Of a DNA stretch of 8,206 bases, positions 2,874-7,277 are shown one piece after another. Origin of the DNA: a bacterium. GTDB taxonomy: Bacteria; UBP15; UBA6099; DSWB01. The stretch is taken from contig JAGUYV010000131.1 in NCBI GenBank assembly GCA_020061125.1, positions 1 to 8,206 of the forward strand. Direction: 5' to 3'. The position numbers were made by a program, and so were the translations under genes. Positions within the stretch are counted from its first letter, which is position 1. Every line of letters begins with the position of its first letter. The notes beneath the pieces are model-generated. The model made no database searches. It saw nothing but the letters and a program-made list of their open reading frames with translations, and was not told where the DNA came from.

Positions 2874-5800
2874 ATGATGAAAAACCGCATGCGCGCCGCA
2901 TTGCTGGGCGCAATTATATTGATGGCGTTTGCCGCGCCGTGCGCGGCGGGCAACCAGCTTGTGCGCGAGAGCGGCAAGGATCCCGTGGTGCTGGTGCACG
3001 GCTACGCCGGGTCCGTGCTCGGCCAGTTGTCCGTGGAGGGCTACTGGCTGTATTACACGACCCGCTTCGCCATTGACGGATACGACGCCTACAAAATCGC
3101 GCTGCCGGACGCGGCTCTCGCCGATGTGCGCGAGAGCGCGGACAAGCTCAAAAATTTCGTGAATGATGTGCGCGCACGCACGGGCCGCAGCAAGGTGGAC
3201 ATCGTGTGCCACAGCGAAGGCGGTCTGGTGGCGCGCTACTACATCCAGATGCTGGGCGGCGCGCAGTTTGTTGACGACATGGTCACCATCGCCACCCCGC
3301 ACCGCGGCACCACCGTGGCCCACATCGGCCCGGGCAAAGCCTCCCGCCAGATGGAGGTCTACAACGATTTTCTCAACGAACTGAACCGCGTCAACACCTT
3401 TCCTGCGGGCATTGATTACACGGCCATCCACAGCAACCACGACGAGATCGTGTTCCCCTCGCAGAACGGGTTCTGGGAAGGCGCGGTCAACATTAATGTC
3501 AACCTGCTGGGCCACGCGGGCATCATGGCCAACGAGCATGTGTACCAGTCGGTTAAGGGCGCGATTTCCACGGACATCAGCGGCGGCATGAGCCGCCTTC
3601 CCGTGCAAATCCAGCGCCCGTCCATGACCACGAACTCGAACGCCGTGACCCTGGCCATCAACCCCTTCAACCATCATCACACGGGCGAGGACATGCGGCA
3701 GATGCGGATCAGCAATTGCCCGTTCATGAGCGGCTCGGACTGGGAGAGCGTGTCCGGATCGCGCTCGTGGTCTCTCGACGGCGGCGAGGGACTCAAGGCC
3801 GTGTATGTGCAGTTCCGCCATTCGGGCAACTGGCTATTCCCCAAGGAATCGCCGGTGTACGCGGACTACATTTTCGTGGACAAATCCGCGCCCGAGGGCG
3901 CGGTGAACATCATCCCGGATTCCACGATCAGCGCGCGTGTGGACATCGAGATTACGGCAAAGGACAACTCGGACAATTACAAGGAATTCAAAATCTGGAA
4001 CGCGCTCATCGCGTTCGGGATCGAAGACCTTGGCGTGAAGGAAATGATGGTGTCCGCGAATTCGGATTTCAGCGGCGCGCAGTGGGTTCCGCTGGCGTCG
4101 CGCACGAGCGTTGACCTTGCGCCCGGCTCGGGGCCGCGCGGGGTCTTCGTGAAGTTCCGCGACGGCGCGGGCAATGTGAGCAGGGTTTATTCCGACACCG
4201 TGAACAAGATTGATCCCGTGGCCGACGGCCTGGCCATGGTGGATGAAGACATCCGCAACCCCGTGGTGTTCGTGCATGGGTACATGGGTTCCATCGTGGG
4301 CGATGTAAGCACTTACATCAACTGGGTGTATTACATCGAGAAACTCAAGCGCGAGGGTTTCAGCACGCACCGCATCACATTGAGCGACGCCGGGCTGCAG
4401 GATGTGACAAAGAGCGCTGCGGAGCTTGATGCGTTCATCAACGGCGTGCTATCGGAAACCGGCGCGGCCAAAGTGGACATCGTGTGCCACAGTGAAGGCG
4501 GGCTGGTGGCGCGTTACTACCTCCAGAACCTTGGCGGCGCGGGCAAGGTGGACGACCTGGTCACCATCTCCACGCCGCACCGCGGCACCACCGTGGCCGC
4601 CATCGGCCCGGGCATGGCCGCGCGGCAGATGGAAGTGGCCAGCGATTTCCTCAAGCAGCTCAACAGCGGGAACACCCTGCCAGCGGGCGTGGAATTCACG
4701 GCCCTTTTCAGCAACGGCGATGAAATCGTGGTCCCTGGCAAAAACGGCTTCTTCGACGGCGCCATGAATGTGAACTGGAACATCTTCGGGCACGCGGGCA
4801 TCCTGTTCGCGCCCGAGCCGTACAATGTGGTCAAGGCGGCGATCTCCAAAAAGAACATTGCGGCAGCGCCTCGCGCCGTCGAAATTGCGCTCCCCGGCAT
4901 GGCCGCGGCGTCAACCCAATGGCCGCTCAAACTCACGGGCTACAACCACTTCGACCCGGACAAGCGGCAGACGCAGATGATGATCAGCACGAACCCGCTG
5001 TTCGCGGGCGCGTCCTGGCAGCCGTTCTCCGAGTCCGCGTCCGTATCCGTGTCCGGCGAACAGGACGGCCTGATCGGCGTACATGTGAAGTTCCGGCGCG
5101 ACGGCGGCGCGGAGTCGCCCTCGTATGCGGACTACATGGTGCTGGACCGCACCGCGCCCCAGGGCGCACTGGCTGCGGAATCCGTGGACGAAACCACGAA
5201 CACCGCGAGTCTCAAGATTTCCGTCACGGACAATTCCGACGAGTACGGCGCCGCCAAATGGACCAACCTGCTGCGCGCATACGGCATCCTGAACATCGGC
5301 GCGGCAGCCATGATCGTGAGCGAGTCCCCGGATTTCTCCGGCGCAAAATGGGAAGCGATCGCGTCGAGCAAGACCCTGCAGCTTTCGCCCGGCCCGGGCA
5401 ACAAGACGATTTACGCGAAATTCCGCGACCGCGCGGGCAACGAGAGCGCGGCCGTGTCCACGGAGATCAATATCTTCGACGGCGTGAACGGGTACATGGC
5501 CTTGGAGCAGACCAAAAACCCCGTGGTGTTCGTCCACGGGTACGGCGGCTCCATCGTGGGCGACATCAGCGCTTACATCAACTGGGTTTTCTTCTATGAA
5601 AAACTCAAGGCCGACGGGTACAGCGTGCACCGCATCACCATCTCGGACGGCGCCATGCAGGACATCACCATCAGCGCCAGAGAGCTGTTCGATTTCGTGA
5701 TGGATGTGCGTTCGAAAACCGGGGCGAACCGCGTGGATCTGGTGTGCCACAGCGAGGGCGGGCTGATCGCGCGCTACTTCATTCAGAACATGGGCGGCGC

Positions 5801-7277
5801 ATCCCTGGTGGACGACCTGGTCGCAATCTCAACACCGCACCGCGGCACCTCCACCTCGCACATCGGGCCGGGCATGGCCGCGCGCCAGATGGAGATCGCA
5901 AGCCAGTTCCTGCAAACCCTCAACGCCGCGGACACCACGCCGGGCGGCGTGGACTACACCGCGATCTTCACCAACGACGACATCACGGTCACACCCGCGG
6001 AAAACGCGTTCTTCGACGGCGCGCTCAACATCAACACCAACGGTTATAACCACGCCACCATCCTGTTCTCGGACGAGGTTTACAAGTGGGTGAAGAGCGC
6101 CGTGTCCCTGGACATCGGGCACAGCCTTTCGCAACTTCCCGTGCGCATCGCCCGCCAGAGCATGGTCACGGCGTCGCCCCAGGTTTCGCTTTCGTTGAAT
6201 TACTACAACCACAACGACCCGCAGTCCGCCCCCGCGCAGATGATGCTCTCAAACGACAAGCTGTTCCGGGGCGCGTCGTGGCAGCCGGTCTCCGGTTCGC
6301 AGTCCTGGACCCTGGACGACGGACGCGACGGACTCAAGGCGGTGTATGTGAAATATAAATCCGAATCCGGCGCCGAGTCCCCGGCGTATGTGGACTTCGT
6401 GGTGCTGGATCGCACTGCGCCAGAGGCGTCGGTCATGATGCAGCAGGCCGCGGACGGCGCCGTCGAGGTGTTCGTGTCCGCGTCCGACAACACGCAGGTT
6501 TACGAGCAGTTGAGCCTGGCGCACCTGCTCAAATCCTACGGCATCACCGGCATCGGCGTGAATGAAATGCTGGTGTCCGCATCCGCCGGGTTCGAGGGCG
6601 CGCAATGGCAGCCGTTTGCGGAAAAGATTTCCTGGACCTTCCCCGCGGGCGCGGACAAAAAGCTGTACATCAAGGTGAGAGACGCCGCTGGCAACGAGAG
6701 CAAGGCGTACACGGCGGGAATCGAAACCGTGGCGGACACCGCGCGCGAGATCACGGATCTGGCCGTGGACTTCCTGCTGCAGATGGATTCTGGATGGACC
6801 TTCGTGTATCTGCCGCCGGTTCTTCCCGAGGAGATCCGCACGGCCCTGGCCGCGGCAACGCGCCAGCGGGAGCGCCGCGCGTACGATTTCAAAGAGCGCA
6901 TGTTCCGCGATGTGAGCGAGGCGTGGCAGGCCGCGGGCGGCTCCGCTTTCTGGGTGCACCTGGACCGCCCCCTGCAACAAGCCGTGCAGTTCACCGTGAG
7001 CGGCGCGGGCGTGGCGCGCGCCGCATCCTCGCGCATCGCGCTCGAACCCGGCTGGAATGTGGTCGGCCTGCCCGGCTACGAGTCCATGTCTCCGGACAGC
7101 CTCACCATCGTTCACGGCGCGGAATCGCTCTCACTGGCCCGCGCCGGGGAAATGGGCGTGGCGCTCGGCAAGCTCTTTGAATTCAAGGACGGATCGTATG
7201 TGGAAGTGCGGGAGATGCAGCCGTTCCGGGCGTATTTTATGCGCGCGTACCAGCCCTGCTTCCTGCAGTTCCCGTGA
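2874..7277 (+). CDS. Secreted triple-domain lipase/esterase: three alpha/beta-hydrolase plus Ig-like units and a duplicated C-terminal module
   Basis: The protein has 1467 residues. The start at 2874 follows GGGGGA five bases upstream and opens a signal peptide: a basic N-terminus, a hydrophobic core 'LLGAIILMAFAAP' and a likely cut after A25. No lipobox is seen. Three lipase-like hydrolase domains follow, at about residues 36-235, 462-661 and 882-1081. Each has an oxyanion 'HGY.GS', a nucleophile elbow 'CHSEGG' (S114, S540, S960), 'TPHRGT', an acid (D190, D616, D1036) and a His (H214, H640, H1060). Ser-Asp is 76 and Asp-His 24 residues in all three. Each is followed by two Ig-like modules with 'vYvkFRd..G..S' and 'D.sAP' strands. 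Residues 1291-1467 hold two related 'GW..V.LP' halves. The family hydrolyses carboxyl esters; the substrate is unknown. Classical lipases carry one such domain, so the triplication is exceptional. In-frame sequence between 2661 and 2874 does not look coding. Confidence 0.85.
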   Translation: MMKNRMRAALLGAIILMAFAAPCAAGNQLVRESGKDPVVLVHGYAGSVLGQLSVEGYWLYYTTRFAIDGYDAYKIALPDAALADVRESADKLKNFVNDVRARTGRSKVDIVCHSEGGLVARYYIQMLGGAQFVDDMVTIATPHRGTTVAHIGPGKASRQMEVYNDFLNELNRVNTFPAGIDYTAIHSNHDEIVFPSQNGFWEGAVNINVNLLGHAGIMANEHVYQSVKGAISTDISGGMSRLPVQIQRPSMTTNSNAVTLAINPFNHHHTGEDMRQMRISNCPFMSGSDWESVSGSRSWSLDGGEGLKAVYVQFRHSGNWLFPKESPVYADYIFVDKSAPEGAVNIIPDSTISARVDIEITAKDNSDNYKEFKIWNALIAFGIEDLGVKEMMVSANSDFSGAQWVPLASRTSVDLAPGSGPRGVFVKFRDGAGNVSRVYSDTVNKIDPVADGLAMVDEDIRNPVVFVHGYMGSIVGDVSTYINWVYYIEKLKREGFSTHRITLSDAGLQDVTKSAAELDAFINGVLSETGAAKVDIVCHSEGGLVARYYLQNLGGAGKVDDLVTISTPHRGTTVAAIGPGMAARQMEVASDFLKQLNSGNTLPAGVEFTALFSNGDEIVVPGKNGFFDGAMNVNWNIFGHAGILFAPEPYNVVKAAISKKNIAAAPRAVEIALPGMAAASTQWPLKLTGYNHFDPDKRQTQMMISTNPLFAGASWQPFSESASVSVSGEQDGLIGVHVKFRRDGGAESPSYADYMVLDRTAPQGALAAESVDETTNTASLKISVTDNSDEYGAAKWTNLLRAYGILNIGAAAMIVSESPDFSGAKWEAIASSKTLQLSPGPGNKTIYAKFRDRAGNESAAVSTEINIFDGVNGYMALEQTKNPVVFVHGYGGSIVGDISAYINWVFFYEKLKADGYSVHRITISDGAMQDITISARELFDFVMDVRSKTGANRVDLVCHSEGGLIARYFIQNMGGASLVDDLVAISTPHRGTSTSHIGPGMAARQMEIASQFLQTLNAADTTPGGVDYTAIFTNDDITVTPAENAFFDGALNINTNGYNHATILFSDEVYKWVKSAVSLDIGHSLSQLPVRIARQSMVTASPQVSLSLNYYNHNDPQSAPAQMMLSNDKLFRGASWQPVSGSQSWTLDDGRDGLKAVYVKYKSESGAESPAYVDFVVLDRTAPEASVMMQQAADGAVEVFVSASDNTQVYEQLSLAHLLKSYGITGIGVNEMLVSASAGFEGAQWQPFAEKISWTFPAGADKKLYIKVRDAAGNESKAYTAGIETVADTAREITDLAVDFLLQMDSGWTFVYLPPVLPEEIRTALAAATRQRERRAYDFKERMFRDVSEAWQAAGGSAFWVHLDRPLQQAVQFTVSGAGVARAASSRIALEPGWNVVGLPGYESMSPDSLTIVHGAESLSLARAGEMGVALGKLFEFKDGSYVEVREMQPFRAYFMRAYQPCFLQFP
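2979..4256 (+). repeat. Coding repeat unit 1 (hydrolase 1 plus two Ig-like modules)
   Basis: Residues 36-461 of the large protein, 426 residues. The hydrolase part carries S114, D190 and H214. The first Ig-like module covers about 242-340 and the second about 341-447. Its N-terminal 76 residues are the most diverged of the three copies. The first Ig-like module has an 'FNHHHTGED' loop where the others have 'YNH.DP'. Confidence 0.85.
4257..5516 (+). repeat. Coding repeat unit 2 (hydrolase 2 plus two Ig-like modules)
   Basis: Residues 462-881, 420 residues, in direct tandem with unit 1. It carries S540, D616 and H640. By hand count the hydrolase matches unit 3 at 49 of 76 residues before the nucleophile elbow, but unit 1 at only 35 of 76. 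From the elbow to the catalytic His region it matches unit 1 best (74 of 106). The Ig-like modules lie at about 666-761 and 762-869. Confidence 0.85.
5517..6734 (+). repeat. Coding repeat unit 3 (hydrolase 3 plus two Ig-like modules)
   Basis: Residues 882-1287, about 406 residues. It carries S960, D1036 and H1060. Local changes around the active site distinguish it: 'TNDDITVTP' replaces 'SN.DEIV.P' and 'NHATI' replaces 'GHAGI', although the triad residues stay. The Ig-like modules lie at about 1087-1182 and 1183-1287. Confidence 0.85.

Follow-up and report, generated by a model that had tools for sequence, protein, structure and literature searches.

The triple-lipase gene and its surroundings

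The window, that is the whole stretch of DNA analysed, measures 8,206 nucleotides and is dominated by a gene predicted to encode a single exported chain that contains three complete active sites of the lipase type, in agreement with what an earlier note on this DNA had claimed (Table 1). The 1,467-aa chain is ordered as a signal peptide, three blocks, each made of a lipase domain (~210 aa) and a pair of Ig-like domains (~210 aa together), and finally a C-terminal domain of ~170 aa that the earlier note had overlooked; the repeat unit of lipase plus Ig-like pair spans about 420 residues. The reading frame is open already from an ATG at 2661. Nevertheless a start at 2874 or 2877 is preferred as the probable one, since it agrees with the relatives and with the predicted signal peptide, and this ATGATG is closely preceded by GGGGGA. 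The traits of the signal peptide, a basic start, a hydrophobic core and small end residues, are present in the relatives too. No promoter-like site above chance was found upstream of the triple-lipase gene and no Rfam match was found within the window.

Table 1. Features of the triple-lipase gene (positions in the window).
Feature	Position	Strand	Remarks
Whole gene, triple-lipase protein	2874..7277	+	1,467 aa; stop 7275-7277
Predicted Sec-type signal peptide	2874..2948	+	Cleavage likely after ...APCAA; read from sequence
Lipase unit 1	2955..3587	+	S114 (3213-3215), D190 (3441-3443), H214 (3513-3515)
Ig-like pair 1	3588..4235	+	About 216 aa; without Pfam match; fold inferred from unit-2 model
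Lipase unit 2	4236..4862	+	S540 (4491-4493), D616 (4719-4721), H640 (4791-4793)
Ig-like pair 2	4863..5495	+	Two beta-sandwich domains in model, second with short helical insert
Lipase unit 3	5496..6122	+	S960 (5751-5753), D1036 (5979-5981), H1060 (6051-6053)
Ig-like pair 3	6123..6734	+	Without confident Pfam match
C-terminal 'GWN' domain	6765..7274	+	Two similar halves, conserved Cys close to end

Elsewhere in the window, NCBIfam identifies positions 1005-2078 as a 3-isopropylmalate dehydrogenase (537 bits against a cut-off of 393). Upstream of this isopropylmalate/tartrate dehydrogenase gene lies an inverted repeat (674-722 / 848-896) of 49 nt, 82% complementary, with its arms 125 nt apart and without Rfam match.

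About 2.3 kb upstream of the triple-lipase gene, a truncated ORF (1-586, + strand) shows an about 34% match to the last ~190 residues of an exported protein of 620-640 aa and of no known family. This protein is encoded directly downstream of the triple lipase in genome G005 and in genus g3 (L036, 2590-4512, - strand; L039, 12595-14475, + strand), whereas none was found next to the triple lipase of G001. The best-connected neighbour family is itself without known function. Since the remaining neighbours vary between genera, the operon gives no function; evidence on the substrate was not found in the neighbourhood, nor was a lipase foldase noticed next to the gene.

The lipase units and their accompanying domains

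Each of the three units passes the cut-off of the Pfam Lipase_2 model (PF01674) with 45-47 bits against 20.3 and has the catalytic Ser-Asp-His triad and the nucleophile elbow. In sequence alignments all three triads are in register with that of Bacillus subtilis LipA, which we take to be S77/D133/H156, or with that of MAS1. As the earlier note had it, the spacing of the triad is identical in the three units of the window protein, with 76 residues from Ser to Asp and 24 from Asp to His.

The predicted structure of unit 2 (mean pLDDT 78) has an alpha/beta-hydrolase fold (Z 20-23), a fold that for units 1 and 3 is suggested by sequence. Its best structural match is the MAS1-type lipase from a marine Streptomyces (PDB 5h6b, 5h6g; Z 22.8, rmsd 3.2, 204 residues aligned, 30% identity), followed by LipA (PDB 1isp, 1i6w; Z 20.3, rmsd 2.1, 168 residues). 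Confidence of the unit-2 model is low near residues 117-123 and 161-171, the latter adjoining the catalytic Asp. In sequence, too, units 1 and 2 match MAS1 best. However, MAS1-type lipases are single-domain proteins of about 265 aa that have a larger insert separating Ser from Asp and lack Ig-like and C-terminal domains, and at about 30% identity the units are distant homologues rather than members of that type. LipA and relatives such as Lip_vut1 (6nkc) share the alpha/beta-hydrolase core, the H-S-x-G-G elbow and Asp and His in register, whereas LipA is a minimal single domain of 181 aa without tandem in which Ser and Asp are 56 residues apart rather than 76. Every lipase domain is an ordinary Lipase_2 domain, with MAS1 and LipA as its closest relatives in sequence and predicted fold. 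The extracellular polyhydroxyalkanoate (PHA) depolymerase PhaZ7 shows weak similarity around the nucleophile elbow; membership of its family (NF050060) was rejected, as the score summed over three stretches is 59.4 bits, far short of the 450 required of an equivalog.

For the Ig-like parts a confident Pfam match was not found, and in a Foldseek search the Ig-like part of the unit-2 model resembled fibronectin-III-like modules and repeat adhesins weakly. The C-terminal 'GWN' domain is modelled with a pLDDT of 88 but had no match in the PDB (Foldseek best E 0.08; VIA best Z 4.2) and no confident match in Pfam or NCBIfam. It has 7-18 matches per genome in the phylum, often at the C-ends of ORFs of 700-5,200 aa (paralogues for instance at L082-L091, L094, L098 and L102), and was found in 30 of the 186 other genomes of the same sample. 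'GWN' is a widespread domain that has no model in Pfam or NCBIfam and perhaps serves in sorting. Its recurrence at the C-ends of other large ORFs, which is the basis for the proposal, makes sorting or surface tethering a fair guess.

Conservation, divergence and age of the triplication

The gene is carried by all seven genomes covered of a small phylum of uncultured bacteria; these genomes represent three families and four genera. Five copies are complete, one has an in-frame TAG and one, in G006, is cut by the contig end and misses lipase unit 1. When 60 genomes were searched, each of the six further members of the order proved to encode this protein, with an identity of about 51-59%, and a search at the level of the phylum returned these seven genomes and no others. 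Scanning 84,980 genomes of named species, with patterns that were taken from the Ig part and cover this exact architecture rather than every multi-lipase protein, gave six loci, apparently copies from these same genomes, including those of bacterium UBP15_UBA6099 and bacterium ADurb.Bin236. In each of the seven genomes the triple-lipase gene is the sole Lipase_2 locus. The TAG of the G001 copy (L040, 11027-11029) falls in unit 1, before the catalytic Ser. It was considered as a pyrrolysine codon, but PylS exceeded its cut-off in none of the seven genomes, and the codon more likely reflects an error in sequencing or a broken gene.

No unit present in the seven genomes has lost its catalytic Ser, Asp or His. 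The surrounding motifs are less strict than the window protein suggests. Therein every unit shows the oxyanion motif HGY.GS, the elbow CHSEGG and no indels between Ser and His, as had been noted earlier, but these do not extend to all relatives. In genus g3 the oxyanion motif reads HGHSGS in unit 2, where an insertion of three residues also separates Ser from Asp, and HGYGAV in unit 3. The elbow across relatives reads [C/A/T/V/S]-H-S-[E/M]-G-G, in which the Cys is variable and H-S-[E/M]-G-G constant; this is a LipA-like form rather than a strict GxSxG.

The description of the lipase domains as near-identical was mistaken, since amino-acid identity between units is 50-61% for the lipase parts and 38-41% for the Ig pairs; the DNA repeats of the window gene are 60-81% alike. 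Within genus g3, to which the estimates were confined as comparisons between genera are near synonymous saturation, dN/dS lies at 0.015-0.021 in lipase 1 and 0.017-0.041 in lipase 2 and at 0.056-0.070 in lipase 3. Purifying selection acts on all three lipase units, which together with the triads kept in the relatives bears out the earlier argument that all copies are under selection. In the tree of the Ig parts units 1 and 2 form well-supported positional clades while unit 3 is loosely grouped; the lipase tree again shows positional clades for units 1 and 2, with unit 3 less resolved. Since units cluster mainly by position, the triplication is older than the split of the three families. A recent duplication with redundant copies is ruled out by the positional clades and dN/dS.

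The earlier impression that the architecture is unfamiliar stands, as it was not found outside the phylum in the data searched. The comparison concerned a sample, one broad set and one other phylum, rather than all of UniProt, and considered the best candidates of each genome, seven at most. A set of 386 genomes, drawn mostly from other phyla, yielded matches in 66, and ORFs with multiple matches were confined to the seven genomes of this phylum. A second set, 396 genomes from one other phylum, yielded matches in 87; here every match lay in an ORF of its own, mostly of 200-600 aa. In total, comparable matches in about 780 other genomes all had one lipase domain per ORF, again among the best seven candidates or fewer per genome. 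A tandem pair in G328 (L068) was rejected as a multi-lipase protein because it consists of two separate single-domain genes. No plasmid or phage record covering most of the protein was found, nor was literature on tandem, two or three lipase domains in one protein among the papers searchable. The triple lipase is a real, ancient and phylum-wide protein, the component domains of which belong to known families.

Proposed function and alternatives

We consider it probable that the protein is an exported, multivalent lipase-type carboxylic-ester hydrolase, built as beads on a string and tethered or sorted by its C-terminal domain. The chain would string together three alpha/beta-hydrolase domains, every one with a triad of its own, and the Ig-like pair after each lipase unit may serve as a spacer, while the C-terminal domain, common to other large proteins of these bacteria, is probably responsible for sorting the chain or for tethering it at the cell surface. 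Catalysis would proceed in each unit independently via the usual serine-hydrolase cycle, forming an acyl-enzyme that is then resolved by water. Carrying three units on one tether would concentrate the enzyme locally and keep it longer on an ester that is insoluble or lies at an interface. The most economical reading is that a single tether carries three independent serine esterases; lipid droplets, polyesters, PHA and cutin are guesses as to substrate. The chain has been kept intact since before the known order diverged and is probably useful. It may provide a natural test of tethering several similar active sites on insoluble esters, of relevance to lipid digestion in anaerobic systems and the design of polyester-degrading enzymes, as well as a protein with assayable activity from a nearly undescribed phylum.

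The stronger proposal that in this ancestral triple lipase the units cooperate from a surface tether on one insoluble polymeric or particulate ester, in a multivalent or processive manner, is tentative. Such a mode is familiar in polysaccharide-degrading enzymes; for natural lipases no description was found as far as we could trace. Among multi-catalytic modular hydrolases, glycoside hydrolases of Caldicellulosiruptor bescii have two catalytic domains per secreted chain with non-catalytic modules between them (PMC4892530). Their chemistry differs, and they combine two glycoside hydrolase domains with carbohydrate-binding modules, whereas the triple lipase repeats one lipase type three times.

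Alternatively the units could be specialised, acting on different esters or chain positions, which would make the protein a three-activity enzyme instead of an avidity device. The positional clades, which imply separate unit identities since before the order diverged, are consistent with this, as are the limited identity between units, the faster evolution of unit 3 (dN/dS 0.056-0.07 against 0.015-0.04) and the Thr that in unit 3 replaces Gly two residues past the catalytic His. However, only five sites in about 208 lipase residues show fixed differences between unit positions, fewer than a change in specificity would suggest, and the spacing of Ser, Asp and His is equal. Three of these five sites fall within ten residues after the catalytic His. 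This pattern points to a chemistry common to the three units, any specialisation being modest and mainly that of unit 3, and we regard specialised units as rather unlikely.

Conservation of the triad cannot separate a lipase from an esterase, thioesterase or acyltransferase, and the Palm_thioest, DUF676, LCAT and Tle3 models match the units as well. Hence the units might be periplasmic or outer-membrane enzymes, of thioesterase, acyltransferase or phospholipase type, that act on cell-envelope or protein-bound acyl groups. A BamA-like Omp85 protein encoded near the G001 copy points to an outer membrane; a diderm envelope fits such a location, and export past the periplasm would need a route. 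Lipase_2 nonetheless has the best E-value and the nearest neighbours in both structure and sequence are secreted lipases, so that this alternative appears more doubtful still than specialisation.

As the window is the entire 8.2-kb contig of an incomplete MAG, one might fear that its three repeats arose in assembly or from a recent duplication without function. This can practically be dismissed, since the three-unit ORF recurs in independently assembled genomes that have diverged to the identities given above, and the units within one chain are too divergent for a collapse artefact.
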